Origin: Rothia koreensis
Lineage (GTDB): Bacteria > Actinomycetota > Actinomycetes > Actinomycetales > Micrococcaceae
Assembly: GCF_004136575.1 (NCBI RefSeq)
Contig: NZ_NOIQ01000011.1
Coordinates: 1-64,000, forward strand
DNA: 64,000 nt
Reading direction: 5' to 3'
Below, piece after piece: positions 14,198 to 62,883 of the stretch. The position numbers and the translations under genes are program-made. The stretch's first letter is position 1, and the number at the start of each line of letters is the position of its first letter. The notes under the pieces were generated by a model. That model was given only the letters and a program-made list of their open reading frames with translations. It was not told the origin of the DNA and searched no databases.

Positions 14198-14458
14198 CCC
14201 TGCGTCCGCCCCCCGTGGGGCGGCGTCGGGGTTGCGGGGCTGCTGGGCTGCGGTGCTACGGGGCTGCGGGGCCTCGGTGCTGCGGTCCTGTGGTGCCTCC
14301 TGGCTGCGGGGCTGCTGGGCTACGGTGCTGCGGGGCTTCGCTGCTGCGGGGCTTCGTAGTTGCGGGGTTGCGAGGCCTCGGTGCTGCGGTCCTGTGGTGC
14401 CTCCTGGCTGCGGGGCTGCGTGCCTGGGTGCCGCGGTACTCCGGGGCCTCGGTGCCGA
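14198..14458. repeat. GC-rich degenerate tandem repeat upstream of array A
   Basis: No gene is seen. The stretch is built of degenerate GCTGCGGGGCT-like units. A ~43-bp segment beginning GCCTCGGTGCTGCGGTCC recurs nearly exactly at 14271 and 14375, 104 bp apart. The first part contains GGGGCGGCGTCGGGG, a motif also seen at the head of the other three repeat loci. Open frames through it encode only repetitive Pro/Ala/Arg or Cys/Gly-rich strings. Confidence 0.8.
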
Positions 14459-14687
14459 CGAGGTGGCAAGTTTGAGCGCCCTGTCCCGCGAAGTGGCAAT
14501 CCCGTGCGCCGCGGCCCGCGAAGTGGCAAATTTGTGCGATTTTTGGGGCAAATAGCGCACGAAAGTGCCACCTCGCGCCCCAATCCGCACGAGATTGCCA
14601 CCTCGCGGCGCGTCCGCGCTCCACACCGCTCAAAAGTGCCACCTCGCGCCGCGTCCGGGCTCCACACCGCTCAAAAGTGCCACCTCG
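14459..14687. repeat. Bipolar repeat array A (three forward, four reverse 20-bp units)
   Basis: Forward units at 14459-14478, 14489-14508 and 14519-14538 (exactly 30 bp apart) match CGARGTGGCANTYYYGWGCG. After a 17-bp centre (14539-14555), reverse units lie at 14556-14575, 14586-14605, 14627-14646 and 14668-14687, spaced 30, 41 and 41 bp. The centre is itself partly complementary (ATTT...AAAT), so the two innermost units form a long hairpin. It sits between convergent genes (DUF4439-like and TSUP). The function is unknown: a bidirectional terminator or a protein-binding array are possibilities. From 14688 to 14795 I see only GC-rich sequence. Confidence 0.9.
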
Positions 14688-46409: not shown

Positions 46410-46634
46410 CACGACGCACGGCGGGCGGGGCTTCGGGCGCGCTGGGCGGCGTCGGGGCGGGCCGGCGTCCGTCTGGGGCGGGCCGGCGTCCGTCGGGGGC
46501 GGGCCGGCGTCGGTTGGGGGCCAGCGGGCCTGCGTCCGTGCGGGTGGCGTCGGGGTTAGCGGGCGTCCGTCGGGATCGGAGAGGTACCCTCGAGCTTCGG
46601 CGGTTGTACGACTGGGGCCCTCCGCGGCATCACG
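46410..46634. repeat. GC-rich degenerate leader of repeat locus B
   Basis: No gene is seen. GGGGCGGGCCGGCGTCCGTC-like units of about 27 bp repeat three to four times between 46455 and 46530, then decay. The same GGGCCGGCGTC core is found at the head of repeat locus C. Confidence 0.75.
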
Positions 46635-46954
46635 GCGTTGGGTGGCGGTTACCGACGGAGCCCCCACGGCATCTCCGCGTTGGGTGGCGGTTACCGACGG
46701 AGCCCCCACGGCATCTCCGCGTTGGGTGGCGGTTACCGACGGAGCCCCCACGGCATCTCCGCGTTGGGTGGCGGTTACCGACGGGGCCTCCACGGCATCT
46801 CCGCGTTGGGTGGCGGTTACCGACGGGGCCTCCACGGCATCTCCGCGTTGGGTGGCGGTTACCCGATTCGGTGGCACTGACCGCCGTTAGGTGGTGGCTG
46901 CACCCCCACCTAACGGCGGAAATCTCCTCCAAATCAGGCAACCCCCACCCAACG
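46635..46954. repeat. 42-bp tandem repeat (GGGTGGCGGTTACC family) with terminal dyad
   Basis: Six copies of a 42-bp unit start at 46635, 46677, 46719, 46761, 46803 and 46845, with exact spacing. Each begins GCGTTGGGTGGCGGTTACC. The first three complete units are nearly identical and later ones differ by a few bases. They are followed by a hairpin with perfect 14-bp arms (46881-46894, 46906-46919) built on the related CGTTAGGTGG, and by an inverted CCACCCAACG at 46945-46954. Because 42 is a multiple of three, all frames stay open; I do not read it as coding. Confidence 0.92.
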
Positions 46955-46970
46955 ACGCCGCGCTCCGCCG

Positions 46971-47089
46971 CGAAGTGGCACTCTCGTGCAGTTTTGACCG
47001 CCATAACCGCACAAAACTGCCACCTCGCGGGAGGCAGCCGCACAAAACTGCCACCTCGCGGGAGGCAGCCGCACAATACTGCCACCTCG
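46971..47089. repeat. Bipolar repeat array B (one forward, three reverse 20-bp units)
   Basis: One forward unit (46971-46990), a 17-bp centre (46991-47007), then reverse units at 47008-47027, 47039-47058 and 47070-47089, 31 bp apart with nearly identical 11-bp spacers (CGGGAGGCAGC). It lies between the convergent S4 and hydrolase genes. Same element as arrays A, C and D. Confidence 0.92.
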
Positions 47090-50609: not shown

Positions 50610-50730
50610 ACACCGCGCCCGCGCTTGCGATCGCTGTTCGCGACCACCAGGTCCTCACCCAGGGCACCCCACCGCGGTTGGAGGGTTGCCGGCCAGCAAG
50701 CTGGGGCTTTGCGCTGGCTCTCTTGACCCG
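50610..50730 (-). promoter_or_regulatory. SAM-IV riboswitch controlling metYX
   Basis: Read on the minus strand from 50729, the leader has GGGTCAAGAGAGCCAGC, then GCTTGCTGGCCGGCAACCC, TCCAACCGCGGTGGGGTGCC, a closing GAGGACC and a downstream GCAAGCGCGGGC. These are the conserved core, pairing partners and pseudoknot region of the SAM-IV aptamer of actinobacteria. About 125 nt separate it from the metY start, including the palindrome CCGGGTCGACCCGG near 50545-50558, which may be part of the expression platform. SAM binding should lower metYX expression. Confidence 0.92.
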
Positions 50731-52395: not shown

Positions 52396-54627
52396 ATGAC
52401 TTCACCTCGTTCTCGTGAAACCCCACGCCCCACCTGGAATACCGACGCCGTGCCCCCGGAGACCCGGAAGGCGCCGACCACGCGCTCGATGCACGGGCAC
52501 GACGTCGTGGACGACTACGAGTGGCTCCGCGCCAAGGACGACCCCCAGGTCATCGAACACCTCGAGCGGGAGAACGCGTATGCCGAGTCCGTGACCTCGG
52601 GGCTCGGGACGCTGCGGTCCTCGATCTTCGGGGAGATCAGGTCCCGAACCCAGGAGACCGACTTGTCGGTACCCAACCGGCTCGGCGACTGGTGGTACTT
52701 CCGCAGAACCGTCGAGGGAAAGAATTACGCGAGTTTCTGCCGTGTCCCCGCCCTGAACACCGGCGACCTGCGCGCGGACTGGACCCCACCCGAAGTTCCA
52801 GCGGATGCTGCCCTCGACGGCGAGGAAGTTCTCCTCGACTGCAACGAGCTGGCCGAAGGTCTCCCCTTCTTCGCTCTGGGATCCTTCCACGTCACCGAAG
52901 ACGGCCGGCTGCTGACGTACTCCGTCGACGATTCCGGCGACGAACGTTTCGACCAGTACGTCAAGGATCTGACCACGGGCTCGCTCCTGCCCGACGTCGT
53001 GGAGGGGGTCTTCGCCGGCGGTTTTCTCACGCCGAAGGGCTCGCACCTGGTCTACACCTTGGTCGACGACTCGTGGCGCCCTTATGAGCTGCGTTCGCAT
53101 CGGCTCGGCACGCCCGTGGATCAGGACCTGGTCCTTCACCACGAGGAGGACGTCGCCCTGTGGCTGGGCGCTGAGACGACGGCGGACGAGAAGCATCTGT
53201 GCATCGACGTCGGATGCTCGGAGTACAACGAGACGCGACTCCTGGCTCTCGCCGACCTCGAGGCCGCCGGGCCGGGGCGGGCCCCCGTCTCCCACGTGGT
53301 CATTCCTCGTGAGGAACGGGTTCTGTATTCCGCCGAACCGATCGAGCTCGACGGCCGGCCCTATGTTCTGCTGTGTCATGACCATCAGGCCCCGAACGGC
53401 GAGTTGACCGCCGTCGACTACGATTCCGCGCTCTCGGGTCTGTCGATGGACGAGTTGCGCTCGACGTGGACCGTGGTGGTGCCGGCGTCGTCGACGCGAC
53501 GACTCAACGGCTTCCATTTCAACCAGACCCACCTGGCTGCCAGCCTGCGCGAGGACGGGCTCGAGAAGGCCGGGTTCATCAGCCTGGACGCGATTAGGGA
53601 AACACTTGAGGGCGGCGACCTCCCCGAACCCTTCGAGCCCTTCTCCGGCGAGGAGCTCTATACCGCCAAGATCACGGCCATGGCGCTGCGTTCGCCCGTC
53701 GTGGGTCTGGGCTACATCTCGTATGTGACGCCGTGGCGGCAGTACGACTACTTCCCCGGCTTGGACGAGCTCGAGCTCCGCAAGCAGACCCCGGTTCTGG
53801 GCGGCTTCCGAAGCGAGGACTACGTCGCCCACCGCGAGTGGGCGCAGGCCCCCGACGGGACGATGGTTCCTCTTTCGGTGATCCACCGGGCCGACGCCGA
53901 CCTGCAGACTCCTCACCCGGTGATCCAGTACGGGTACGGATCCTACGAGGCCAGTTCGAATCCGGGGTTTTCGGTGTCGCGCCTGAGCCTGCTCGATCGC
54001 GGTGTGGTCTACGTGGTGGCACACGTGCGGGGTGGCGGCGAACTCGGCCGAGACTGGTACCTGCAGGGCAAGAAACTGCAGAAAATCAATACCTTCACCG
54101 ACTTCGTCGCGGTCACCGATCACGTGGCCACGCAACCGTGGGCCGACGAATCCCGCATCGCCGCCTATGGCGGTTCGGCGGGCGGACTGCTCATGGGCGC
54201 GATAGTCAATATGGCCCCCGAAAAGTATTGCGGCGTCCTGGCCGCGGTCCCCTTCGTTGACCCGGTGACCAGTATCAGCGATCCGGATCTTCCCCTGTCC
54301 GCTCTCGAGTGGGAGGAATGGGGCAACCCGATCGAGGACAAGGAAGTCTACGAGTACATGACGTCCTACGCCCCTTACGAGAACGTCCGCTCGGTGGCTT
54401 ACCCGCCCATTGCGGCCGTGACGAGCTTGAACGATACCCGGGTGCTTTACGTTGAGCCCGCCAAGTGGGTTCCCAAGCTCCGCGAACACACCACCGGCAC
54501 GGCCCCGATCCTGCTGCGTATCGAGATGGACGGCGGCCACGGCGGCGGCTCCGGACGGTATCGCCAGTGGGAGGACACGGCCTGGGAGTACGCCTTCCTG
54601 CTCAACTGCCTCGGTATCGACTCCTAG
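52396..54627 (+). CDS. ptrB: Oligopeptidase B (S9A serine peptidase)
   Basis: A 743-aa prolyl-oligopeptidase-family enzyme cleaving short peptides, usually after Lys/Arg. The seven-bladed propeller spans about 75-430; the hydrolase domain has Ser in AYGGSAGGLLMGA (about 594), Asp in VTSLNDTRVLYVEPAKW (about 680) and His in MDGGHGGGSGRYRQW (about 715). VVAHVRGGGELGRDWY is typical of PtrB. No signal peptide, so it is cytoplasmic. It is followed by repeat array C. Confidence 0.92.
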   Translation: MTSPRSRETPRPTWNTDAVPPETRKAPTTRSMHGHDVVDDYEWLRAKDDPQVIEHLERENAYAESVTSGLGTLRSSIFGEIRSRTQETDLSVPNRLGDWWYFRRTVEGKNYASFCRVPALNTGDLRADWTPPEVPADAALDGEEVLLDCNELAEGLPFFALGSFHVTEDGRLLTYSVDDSGDERFDQYVKDLTTGSLLPDVVEGVFAGGFLTPKGSHLVYTLVDDSWRPYELRSHRLGTPVDQDLVLHHEEDVALWLGAETTADEKHLCIDVGCSEYNETRLLALADLEAAGPGRAPVSHVVIPREERVLYSAEPIELDGRPYVLLCHDHQAPNGELTAVDYDSALSGLSMDELRSTWTVVVPASSTRRLNGFHFNQTHLAASLREDGLEKAGFISLDAIRETLEGGDLPEPFEPFSGEELYTAKITAMALRSPVVGLGYISYVTPWRQYDYFPGLDELELRKQTPVLGGFRSEDYVAHREWAQAPDGTMVPLSVIHRADADLQTPHPVIQYGYGSYEASSNPGFSVSRLSLLDRGVVYVVAHVRGGGELGRDWYLQGKKLQKINTFTDFVAVTDHVATQPWADESRIAAYGGSAGGLLMGAIVNMAPEKYCGVLAAVPFVDPVTSISDPDLPLSALEWEEWGNPIEDKEVYEYMTSYAPYENVRSVAYPPIAAVTSLNDTRVLYVEPAKWVPKLREHTTGTAPILLRIEMDGGHGGGSGRYRQWEDTAWEYAFLLNCLGIDS

Positions 54628-54667
54628 CGCCGGGCCGGCGTCGGGGGGCCGGGGGCGGGGCCGGCGT

Positions 54668-54814
54668 CGAGGTGGCAATCCTGAGCGATTTTCCCCGCGA
54701 GGTGGCAGTTTTGGGACCGAAACCGCCGAATTTCGTCCCAAAACTGCCACCTCGGCGGCGGAGCTGCACGAGGTTGCCACCTCGCCGGCGGGACAGCACA
54801 AAACTGCCACCTCG
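54668..54814. repeat. Bipolar repeat array C (two forward, three reverse 20-bp units)
   Basis: Forward units at 54668-54687 and 54698-54717, a 17-bp centre (54718-54734), reverse units at 54735-54754, 54765-54784 and 54795-54814: every spacing is 30 bp. At the dyad the unit ends in TTTTGGGAC and its partner begins GTCCCAAAA, where other loci have GAGCG/CGCTC: both arms changed together. The centre also pairs (GAAA with TTTC). It lies between the convergent ptrB and gatB genes; 54628-54667 and 54815-54906 hold only GC-rich filler. Confidence 0.93.
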
Positions 54815-54906
54815 GCGCTGCGGGCTCGCCGCTGTAACTTCACGGCCGGACCTCGCCGGCGAGGCCTCACGCCGGCCACCAGGGGCCTTGCCTCGATCCG
54901 GACACA

Positions 54907-54956
54907 GACCGAGGGGCGCCCGATTGACCAGCTAGGTCACCGGGCGCCCCTCGGTC
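54907..54956. terminator. Terminator after gatB
   Basis: Perfect 16-bp arms (54907-54922, 54941-54956) with an inner TGACC/GGTCA stem and an AGCTA loop lie 18 bp after the gatB stop. No U-run. It probably acts on both strands next to array C. Confidence 0.8.
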
Positions 54957-54973
54957 TCGTATACCGCGCGTTC

Positions 54974-56476
54974 TCAGCCTTCGACGCCGAGCTTTTCGAG
55001 GATCAGCTCACGCACGCGGGCGGCGTCGGCCTGGCCTCGGGTGGCCTTCATGACCTGGCCGACCACGGCACCGGCGGCCTGGACCTTGCCGCCGCGGATC
55101 TTCTCGGCGACGTCGGGCATGCTGGCCAAGGCGTCGTCGACGGCGCTCGAGAGCTCGCCTTCGTCGGAGACGACGGCGAGTCCGCGTTTCTCGACAACCT
55201 CCCCCGGGGTCCCCTCTCCATCTACCACGTGCTCGAGCACCTGGCGGGCGATCTTGTCGTTGATCTTCCCTTCCTGGATGAGCCCGTCCAGTTCGACGAC
55301 GGTCTCGGGGCTCGCGCCCAGATCACCGGGATCGATCTCACGCACCTTGGCCAGGCGCGAGATCTCTCCCATCCACCACTTCCTGGCGACCGACGCGCTG
55401 GCGCCGGCGGCAATGGTTTCCTCGATCTCGGTCATCACACCGGCGTTGACGACGTCCCGGAATTCCTCGTCCGAGTACCCCCAGTCGGCCTGGAGCCGAC
55501 GACGACGTTCGGCGGGCGGTTCCGGAAGCTCGGCCCGCAACCGCTCGATCCACTCCGCATTCGTCACGACCGGCACAAGGTCCGGTTCGGGGAAATAGCG
55601 GTAGTCGTCGGCGTCGGACTTGGGACGGCCGGAGGTCGTCTCCCTCGTGTCCTCGTGCCAGTGACGGGTTTCCTGGACGATCTGCTCCCCGGCATCGAGA
55701 ACCGCCGCATGGCGGCAGATCTCGTAGCGCACCGCGCGCTCGACGGCACGCATCGAGTTCACGTTCTTGGTCTCGGTGCGGGTGCCGAGGGTTTCGGAAC
55801 CCTTGGGGCTCAGAGACACGTTGGCATCGCAACGAACATTGCCGCGCTCCATGCGTGCGTCCGAAATACCCAGGTTCTTCACGATCTCCCGAATGGCCTT
55901 GACGTACGCCTTGGCCAGTTCCGGGGCCCTCTCCCCCGCGCCCCGGATCGGACGCGTCACGATCTCAATGAGAGGTACGCCGGAGCGGTTGTAGTCCACC
56001 AGGGAGTATTCGGCGCCCTGGATGCGGCCGGCCCCACCCTTGTGGCTCAACTTGCCCGCGTCTTCCTCCATGTGCGCCCGCTCGATCTCGACAGTGAACT
56101 GCGTACCGTCCTCGAGCTCGATATCCACCGAACCGTTTTCGGCAATCGGTTCGTCGTACTGTGAGGTCTGGAAATTCTTGGGCGTATCAGGGTAGAAGTA
56201 GTTCTTTCTGGCGAAGTGGCTCACCGGAGCGATGTCACAGCCGAGGGCCAGACCCAGCTTGATCGCCGACTCCACCGCTGTTCCGTTGACCTTGGGAAGC
56301 ACTCCCGGAAGGCCCAGCGACACCGGGGTGATGTTGGTGTTCGGTTCGTCACCGAACGCGTTCGGGGCGTCGTCGAACATCTTGGTCTTGGTGTTCAGCT
56401 CAACGTGCACCTCGAAACCCAGTACGGGATCGTACTTGGCCATGGCCTCGTCGAAGGACAAAATCTCGTCTGACAT
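54974..56476 (-). CDS. gatB: Aspartyl/glutamyl-tRNA amidotransferase subunit B
   Basis: GatB binds the misacylated Glu-tRNA(Gln) or Asp-tRNA(Asn) and phosphorylates it before amidation. At 500 aa it has VLGFEVHVELNTKTKMFDDA, the NKNYFYPDxPK-type ARKNYFYPDTPKNFQTSQYD, VDYNRSGVPLIEIVT, ERGNVRCDANVSLSPKGSE and DYRYFPEPDLVP, and a C-terminal YqeY/GatB tail domain. Its ATG lies directly behind the gatA stop. Confidence 0.96.
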   Translation of the reverse strand: MSDEILSFDEAMAKYDPVLGFEVHVELNTKTKMFDDAPNAFGDEPNTNITPVSLGLPGVLPKVNGTAVESAIKLGLALGCDIAPVSHFARKNYFYPDTPKNFQTSQYDEPIAENGSVDIELEDGTQFTVEIERAHMEEDAGKLSHKGGAGRIQGAEYSLVDYNRSGVPLIEIVTRPIRGAGERAPELAKAYVKAIREIVKNLGISDARMERGNVRCDANVSLSPKGSETLGTRTETKNVNSMRAVERAVRYEICRHAAVLDAGEQIVQETRHWHEDTRETTSGRPKSDADDYRYFPEPDLVPVVTNAEWIERLRAELPEPPAERRRRLQADWGYSDEEFRDVVNAGVMTEIEETIAAGASASVARKWWMGEISRLAKVREIDPGDLGASPETVVELDGLIQEGKINDKIARQVLEHVVDGEGTPGEVVEKRGLAVVSDEGELSSAVDDALASMPDVAEKIRGGKVQAAGAVVGQVMKATRGQADAARVRELILEKLGVEG

Positions 56477-58573: not shown

Positions 58574-59329
58574 TTACGCGGCCGGGATCTCCAGGGTCTG
58601 GCCCGGGAAGATCAGGTCCGGGTTGGTCACGACGGAGCCGTTGGCCTGAACCAGGGCATCGACGGACACGCCGTACTGATCGGCGATCGACTTCAGGGTC
58701 TCGCCAACGGACACGGTGTGAGTAGCAGCGGAGGACTGAACCGGGGCAGCAACCTGCTCCTGGGCGGGAGCCTCGTAGGTCTGCTGCTCGGGAACCTGCT
58801 GAACCTCGGGCTGAGCCTGCTCAACGGGAGCCTGCTCGGGCTGAGCCTGCTCAACGGGGGCCTGCTCAACGGGAGCCTGCTCAGGCTGGGCCTGCTCGGC
58901 CGGAGCCTGGAACTCCTGGACATCCTGGGACTGAGCCTGGACGTCCTGCTGCGGCTGAGCCTGCTCCTGCTGACCGGAACCGGAATCGCCGGAACCTGCC
59001 TGCTGGGAGCAAACCGGCCATGCACCGGGGCCCTGCTCGGCCAGAACACGCTCGGCAACCTGGATCTGCTGTTCCTTGGAAGCGTTCTGCGGGTCGCCCT
59101 GGCCACCGAAGGAGGACCAGGTGCTCGGGGTGAACTGCAGGCCACCGGAGAAGCCGTTACCGGTCGAGGTCGACCAGTCTCCGCCGGACTCGCACTGTGC
59201 GACGGCGTCCCAGTCGAGGCTATCGGCATTTGCGGGAGCGGTAGCCAGCGCACCGGCGGCGGCGCCACCGATCACGAGGGCGGCTGCACCGCGGCGGGCA
59301 TTGCGTCGGAAAGTGGAAGTATTGTTCAC
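58574..59329 (-). CDS. Resuscitation-promoting factor (Rpf) with LysM domain
   Basis: A 251-aa secreted muralytic protein. The signal peptide ([19 protein letters not shown]) ends near APANA-DS. The Rpf domain follows at 37-110: [15 protein letters not shown] carries the catalytic Glu, then [18 protein letters not shown] and [17 protein letters not shown]. Residues ~115-200 are a Gln/Pro/Glu/Ala linker with near-exact repeats ([10 protein letters not shown], three or more copies). A C-terminal LysM ([20 protein letters not shown]) binds peptidoglycan. Rpf enzymes cut glycan strands and wake dormant cells. A terminator follows. The promoter region has an OmpR-type direct repeat. Confidence 0.93.
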
Positions 59330-62217: not shown

Positions 62218-62640
62218 ACGATGGGTGGCGGTTACCCGATTCGGAGGGGCTTAGCCGGTCCGGAGGGGCTTAGGCTGCTACGCGGGACGCCATCCGGCTC
62301 GGCTTCCCCTAGTACCTCAGTACCGCCTTCCGGTTCGCCTATTTCTTCACTCGGTATTGCCTCTCCCGGTATCCCCTCTTGAATGGTGGTTACCCGATTC
62401 AGAGGCGCTTGGCCTGCTGCGCGGGCCCCTTCCCGCACCTCGGCCTCCCCTTCTTGGGTGGCGGTAACCGTATTCCGAGCCGCTTGCCGTCATGAGGTGG
62501 CGGCCAGAACCCCACCCAGGGTGGGAAAACACCACGCCATCGGGCAGCCGCCACCCAACACGGGCCCGGCGGGGGGGGGCACGACGTCGTCGGGCAACCA
62601 GCACTCGATCGACCAACCGCCACTCAACGCGACCGACGAC
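62218..62640. repeat. Second-family repeat (GGGTGGCGGTTACC) in locus D, forward then inverted
   Basis: Forward motifs start near 62221 (TGGGTGGCGGTTACCCGATT), 62384 (ATGGTGGTTACCCGATTC), 62455 (TGGGTGGCGGTAACCGTATT) and 62494 (GAGGTGGCGG). A small dyad CCCACC-CAG-GGTGGG follows at 62511-62525, then inverted forms near 62550 (GCAGCCGCCACCCAAC) and 62615 (CAACCGCCACTCAAC). The last unit of locus B shares TTACCCGATTCGG with this one, so loci B and D have the same two-family composition. A nine-G run is at 62571-62579. Confidence 0.8.
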
Positions 62641-62676: not shown

Positions 62677-62883
62677 CGAGGTGGCAATCCCGTGCGAAAT
62701 CCAGGACGAAGTGGCAATCCCGTGCGGAGTCCAGGACGAAGTGGCAACTGTGAGCGAAACCCGGCGCGAAGTGGCAGTTTTGAGCGGTTTTAGGGGCGAA
62801 AATCGCTCAAAACTGCCACCTCGCGGGAGGAAGCGCTCAAAATTGCCACTTCGCGGGAGGAAGCGCTCAAAACCGCCACCTCG
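62677..62883. repeat. Bipolar repeat array D (four forward, three reverse 20-bp units)
   Basis: Forward units at 62677, 62707, 62737 and 62767 (each 20 bp), a 17-bp centre (62787-62803), and reverse units at 62804, 62834 and 62864. Every step within an arm is exactly 30 bp. The innermost pair is complementary over 20 bp apart from one G-T, and the centre adds TTTT/AAAA pairing around AGGGGCG, giving a 57-nt hairpin. Reverse spacers are identical (CGGGAGGAAG). Unlike the other arrays it is not between convergent genes: it lies between the 3' end of the PP2C gene and the 5' side of ligA. Confidence 0.95.

Follow-up and report, generated by a model that had tools for sequence, protein, structure and literature searches.

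The feature described here lies in a 64,000-nucleotide stretch of DNA (the window), which is contig C2 of a 2.91-Mb genome assembled in 44 contigs. To its left is a gene on the + strand (52450-54627) whose translation reads as an S9-type peptidase, and to its right a gene on the - strand (54974-56476) whose translation reads as gatB; both assignments come from translation only. Between them, positions 54668-54814 form a small convergent array, array C, consisting of a half-site, a 57-bp dyad and two further half-sites. Sequence and array anatomy place the left outer half-site, CGAGGTGGCA-N5-GAGCG, at 54668-54687 on the + strand, pointing inward. The dyad core (54698-54754, class II/II, no strand assigned) is made up of a left arm on the + strand (54698-54717), which carries the class II half-site CGAGGTGGCAGTTTTGGGAC and ends in GGGAC (54713-54717), a 17-bp centre (54718-54734, no strand assigned) with a G/C-rich middle between A/T-containing tracts, and a right arm on the - strand (54735-54754), also a class II half-site, which begins with GTCCC. 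The two right outer half-sites, of GTGCA type (54765-54784) and with GTGCT (54795-54814), are both on the - strand.

The 147-nt stretch of array C folds strongly, with z-scores of -8.9 and -9.6 on its two strands. A long hairpin separate from the array adjoins the end of the gatB-like gene (54906-54957, - strand) and is terminator-like without a T-run; no intrinsic terminator, consisting of a stem-loop and T-run, was found in 54500-55100. Rfam gives no match at gathering score for array C, and ten of the sixteen weak matches below that score around it are microRNA hairpins. Elsewhere in the window there is a SAM-IV riboswitch (103.5 bits, 50616-50728, - strand), and a tandem repeat of 15/30/45 bp (58805-58909) within the called gene 58574-59329. 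The history of the junction was examined in 30 loci around the peptidase gene, our own and those of 29 relatives. The peptidase/gatB-like junction of the window holds five half-sites; the same junction has none in any of the 12 relatives in which it is readable (80 to 1278 bp), the other 17 of the 29 having no gatB-like match within the locus. By eye, several of the relatives' short junctions show a hairpin.

Three sister arrays, none assigned to a strand, lie in the same window: array A (14459-14687; core 14519-14575, class I/I), array B (46971-47089; core 46971-47027, class I/I) and array D (62677-62883; core 62767-62823, GAGC/GAGC). The window has four occurrences of the pattern GTGGCA-N25..50-TGCCAC, whereas shuffled sequence averages 0.07. 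Other repeats occur nearby. An 8-bp tandem repeat, CGGGGCTG, with about 24 copies, directly precedes array A (14227-14420). A second repeat family, GTTRGGTGG / GGGTGGCGGTTACC, is present at 46609-46963 and 62219-62580; it has GGTGGC in common with the first family, adjoins it in places, and gives 69 short matches in the fetched stretches against 8 for the reversed pattern. The segment 46847-47070, which comprises second-family repeats and array B, recurs near the end of contig C33 (L097 2953-3256) at about 94% identity, and represents either a recent copy or an effect of assembly.

Genome-wide counts establish that the arrays belong to a real, well-built repeat family. There are 551 copies of the half-site TGCCACYTCG (25 of its reversed control), and GTGGCA-N37-TGCCAC, at an exact spacing of 37, defines 107 dyads, against one for the reversed pattern. 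Of the 107 dyads, 99 lie in the fetched stretches and the window, which also include 462 of the 551 half-sites. Removal of near-duplicates, identical at 46 or more of 49 positions, reduces the 99 dyads to 77, and a stricter non-redundant set of 43 behaves in the same way. There are two main half-site classes: class I, CGARGTGGCA-N5-GTGC, and class II, CGAGGTGGCA-RTTTT-GGGAC. Beside the centre of the 77 non-redundant dyads the arm types are GTGC (109), GGGA (35), GAGC (9) and other (1), and they combine as GTGC/GTGC (43), GGGA/GTGC (15), GGGA/GGGA (10), GAGC/GTGC (7), GAGC/GAGC (1) and GTGC/other (1). Class II accounts for 42 of 172 core arms and for 2 of 206 outer half-sites; it is almost confined to the core, so the outer units have not been copied from class II cores.

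The half-sites of an array point inward (>>..<<) with regular spacing. Among 284 same-orientation steps, 187 are of 30 bp, 23 of 31 bp and 24 of 41 bp, these spacings being found in 51, 18 and 10 clusters, respectively; 15 steps are shorter than 25 bp, and not all are in phase. The dyad is 57 bp long in 89 of 100 inward pairs, and the two sides are symmetric in unit number (2.45 and 2.38 per side for 100 dyads). At 14 motif positions in 74 array regions, sites with zero, one, two and three mismatches number 441, 67, 28 and 39, against a background of 0.2, 0.6, 1.5 and 22; half-sites are therefore mostly either intact or absent, with the qualification that they were found via their box, whose conservation is partly built in. 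The 10-bp spacers between them have diverged: those of dyad partners have a likeness of 0.32, against 0.34 for random pairs and the 0.34 that column composition alone gives. A higher value, 0.54, is obtained for the spacers of tandem neighbours and suggests that arrays have grown locally in tandem. In the dyad centre, positions 17-20 are A or T in 90-99% of 154 arms, and 179 of 308 cells pair, against about 160 expected.

The arrays are placed mainly at gene ends. Of the 514 fetched half-sites 20 lie inside called genes, and of 74 clusters, counted with 25 single half-sites set aside, 24 lie between convergent genes, 22 between genes in the same direction and 8 between divergent genes, the other 20, at contig or stretch edges, being left out of the context counts (54 placed arrays remain). 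Measured against the remaining gene pairs of these stretches, the convergent enrichment is strong (p 2e-8), as obtained with a simple gene caller and with some gene pairs holding two arrays. Orientation to transcription is not visible in the 23 same-direction contexts (49 upstream against 59 downstream, p 0.24). Placement is similar in Arthrobacter and Naasia, often less than 25 bp from a stop codon, and divergent placements are few in the other genera.

The preliminary description of array C had pointed to a compensatory change in both arms of the dyad, with pairing kept, as the signature of a selected RNA or single-strand DNA structure. The sequences are correct as described: GGGAC and GTCCC stand in array C where array D has GAGCG and CGCTC. 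The self-complementarity attributed to the centres holds in part. TTTT and AAAA face each other in array D; in array C, GAAA and TTTC pair only via a one-base bulge, and in array A an internal loop separates the inner stem. Over the 77 dyads, 213 of the 385 cells at centre positions 16-20 are complementary, where shuffled halves lead one to expect 195.4 ± 10.4 (p 0.05).

Covariation was measured by pair counts against shuffles, and not by R-scape itself. An ungapped alignment of 78 pooled dyads (A1) does covary, with a score of 0.173 against 0.129 and none of 500 shuffles as high, largely because two half-site classes are mixed in it. Within class I/I (n = 43) the score is 0.125 against 0.126, with 283 of 500 shuffles as high, and the shuffled-halves test over 18 variable positions gives 470 of 774 complementary cells against 464.2 (z 0.5); for class II/II the corresponding figures are 135 of 180 and 133.0. 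The pairing excess over shuffled halves resides at positions 12, 14 and 15, equivalent to a single exchanged block, and at some positions of the centre, and positions 6-10, between the two conserved blocks, have none (196 of 385 against 190.5 expected). Of 25 non-redundant dyads with class II, 15 are mixed I/II, and three pairs are broken in all 15; their covariation score is 0.075 against 0.062 (45 of 500 shuffles), and an excess of pairing is confined to the middle positions 21-23 (32 of 45, with 26.5 expected, p 0.02). Given the lack of covariation in class I/I and the open pairs in mixed dyads, the double change in array C is best read as two class II half-sites side by side in one dyad, and for array C and this genome the idea that kept pairing marks a selected structure does not seem to hold. 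More generally, the pooling of two half-site classes imitates RNA covariation, and can mislead covariation screens applied to palindromic repeats.

One result favours the original idea. Class II/II dyads exceed the number expected from random pairing of arms (10 against 3.9, p 0.00025); this excess is real, and selection for pairing would yield it, as would either descent of a subfamily or the preference of a dimeric protein. A pairing signal is also found in relatives. The 57-bp dyads of Arthrobacter and Paenarthrobacter (n = 11) covary, with a score of 0.236 against 0.113 that is reached by none of 500 shuffles; nine pairs are changed on both sides, and 154 of 198 cells are complementary, against 123.4 ± 5.9 (the 0.236 and 154/198 figures exclude a chance match, L140, which the lineage shuffled-halves comparison includes). 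The dyads of Microbacterium (n = 9; 96 of 162 cells complementary, 99.6 expected) and Naasia (n = 27; 280 of 486, 312.9 expected) show no covariation. Pairing is thus kept in one lineage and not in the whole family, and the idea of selected structure, which looks unlikely for the window's genome, does hold for the Arthrobacter/Paenarthrobacter dyads.

These observations bear on the possibility that the arrays act as RNA or single-strand DNA hairpins, serving as bidirectional transcription terminators or mRNA 3' ends. The strong folds, which include one mixed I/II dyad (L093, z -5.3), the convergent bias of the arrays, the II/II excess and the covariation in the pooled and Arthrobacter sets all accord with it. 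We nevertheless consider it unlikely, as class I/I dyads do not covary, mixed dyads carry broken pairs and one of them folds no better than shuffles (L067, z -0.86), no T-run is found around array C, there is no significant excess of G.U over A.C on the sense strand (40 against 28, p 0.18), and array C is additional to the separate hairpin at its junction and absent from that junction in 12 relatives.

The distribution of the family is restricted. A stricter pattern, GAGGTGGCA-N20..50-TGCCACCTC, matches the window's genome at 63 places but only 5 of 148 other relatives, and 31 of 34 genomes of the same genus have no match at all; an order-wide search at spacings of 5-35 (6 of 396) excludes the family's spacing of 37 and is uninformative on it. 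Other lineages, namely Naasia, Microbacterium aurantiacum, Arthrobacter and Kocuria sp. 36, keep the 37-base spacing and the box with an inner sequence of their own, the conservation of the box being due to the construction of the search. Kocuria sp. 36 belongs to the window's genus, one of its loci being identical to a locus of a same-genus genome. Matches number 28 in Naasia (control 3) and 10 in M. aurantiacum (control 1), and nine other genomes give 1-4 each against 0-3. At the permease-arginase junction of two Arthrobacter genomes there is a dyad (L034 5642-5698, L047 2821-2877), and at position 6 the two copies differ in both arms, G-C having changed to T-A. Palindromes of 50-52 bp, GAGGTGGCAGCCCCTCGTCG... 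or similar, which combine the same box with other arms, occur in three genomes of another family of the order (G115, G131 and G212; L110, L111, L114, L115, L117, L120, L125, L126). Among the literature matches listed, the repeat family was not found in print, and those listed for the two motif strings look unrelated by title. The family is best described as lineage-specific, intergenic and REP-like.

Such a distribution might be produced by selfish REP- or MITE-like palindromes, copied by a transposase or by slippage, which serve no host function and are tolerated downstream of genes. Their patchiness among relatives, their near-exclusion from genes, the junctions without half-sites in all 12 readable relatives, and the gene-end placement shared by Arthrobacter and Naasia, which resembles that described for REPs (PMC3733652), speak for this explanation. 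Against it, the genome has no Y1 transposase: a RAYT mobiliser was rejected on finding no match to PF01797 (Y1_Tnp), to which 5 of 14 control genomes have matches. Of 27 listed BLAST rows 20 fall within one stretch, near-identical stretches thus being mostly local, and mostly intact half-sites over diverged spacers would be hard to obtain from old junk. We regard a selfish origin as possible but rather doubtful.

The half-sites might also be the ends of recombination or transposition units, that is, multi-site transposase or recombinase binding sites with the dyad formed by two abutted ends. Bipartite half-sites in direct repeats with an inverted core would suit this, as would an outer tip common across genera with a lineage-specific inner part. 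This we hold to be very improbable: a Pfam scan of 40 flanking proteins found no recombinase or transposase, and searches of phage, plasmid and viral sequences found no relative. The plasmid and phage searches covered array D alone and gave only short pieces, from 4 plasmid and 5 phage records (E 0.2-0.7), on which a plasmid or phage origin was rejected; two viral pattern scans were empty. The 40 flanking proteins share no gene throughout, and a common neighbour was likewise rejected; four have no Pfam match, MFS transporters are seen twice, the repeated finding of a permease and an arginase goes back to one orthologous site, and there is a single regulator each of the MarR, PucR, IclR and LacI kinds. 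No candidate for a binding protein was singled out among them. A DUF559 endonuclease-like gene lies amid five Naasia dyads (L045 651-1391); as a partner it was rejected, being found in 5 of 10 genomes searched and not in the window's genome.

Taken together, the mostly intact half-sites over diverged spacers, the 30/31/41-bp spacing, the A/T tracts with little pairing and the left-right symmetry lead us to propose, with about balanced confidence, that these are phased arrays for a putative DNA-binding protein on double-stranded DNA, REP-like in placement. The selected unit would be the bipartite half-site of about 20 bp, of class I or II, bound as duplex by one putative sequence-specific protein or by two related ones. 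Tandem outer half-sites, mostly 30/31 or 41 bp apart, would present the protein on about one helix face and direct it inward to the fixed 57-bp dyad, where an inverted pair of subunits may meet over A/T tracts around a G/C centre; in array C both core arms are of the variant class. Such arrays are presumably tolerated mainly at gene ends; phasing might allow cooperative binding, and the cellular role could be DNA organisation or insulation at gene ends. Several points count against phased binding arrays: no binding protein was found among the 40 flanking proteins scanned, the short steps depart from the phasing, a 30-bp tandem duplication could alone give the regular spacing, the spacers of tandem neighbours being alike, the conservation of the box is partly built in, and the II/II excess and the pairing at positions 21-23 of mixed dyads speak for pairing. 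Covariation in the Arthrobacter dyads, whose outer box and length are the same, suggests that some members of the family may function as hairpins. The family has 107 dyads and sharp core-versus-outer rules, and the binding-array proposal predicts a specific protein that footprints the half-sites.

The arrays are unevenly spread over the chromosome. The 802-kb contig C11 has both dif-like matches, with one and two mismatches, and 3 of the 107 dyads; under an even spread this has a p value of 1e-11 by dyads and 6e-7 by loci, the 62 loci being our own grouping. Repeats break assemblies, and long contigs are therefore expected to be somewhat array-poor. The dnaA gene is on contig C6, which has two dyads. 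In Naasia, with dnaA at 1.15 Mb and dif at 2.97 Mb, no terminus gap is evident by eye among the 28 matches. It is conceivable, although we think it quite unlikely, that a nearly species-specific, chromosome-wide network of phased convergent arrays, in which one class of half-site is kept for the dyad core and the terminus is poor in arrays, constitutes a nucleoid-organising or nucleoid-occlusion-like system. Actinobacteria are said to lack the known FtsZ regulators (PMC7118173, PMC7968930).

The family can be compared with several known systems. The palindromic sites bound by Noc (NBS) and SlmA (SBS) number in the dozens per chromosome and are spread unevenly (PMC4726725); the family is likewise uneven in distribution, with C11 array-poor. 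It differs from them in consisting of arrays and not single palindromes, in its restricted distribution, and in the lack of a clear terminus gap in Naasia. Noc and SlmA sites are poor at the terminus. Intrinsic terminators resemble the arrays as hairpins near stop codons on both strands; the arrays differ in their conserved half-site sequence, and array C in that no T-run is found around it and that a separate hairpin is already present at the array C junction. With REP/BIME elements the arrays share multiple copies and intergenic positions, where the 3' ends of genes and convergent gene pairs predominate, a placement reported for REPs (PMC3733652). Unlike these elements they have tandem inward half-sites, regular spacing and a fixed 57-bp core; by eye, no REP-type unpaired GTAG/CGTC tag is seen at the dyad ends, and the dyads are symmetric, with CGAG...CTCG at both ends. 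REPs of the GTAG type have a RAYT (Y1_Tnp) gene, unlike the window's genome with respect to PF01797, and those of the CGTC type are said to lack one. Plasmid iterons are bipartite direct repeats of about 20 bp, spaced by whole helical turns and accompanied by an inverted pair. The arrays share each of these traits with iterons, and differ from them in being dispersed at many places on the chromosome.
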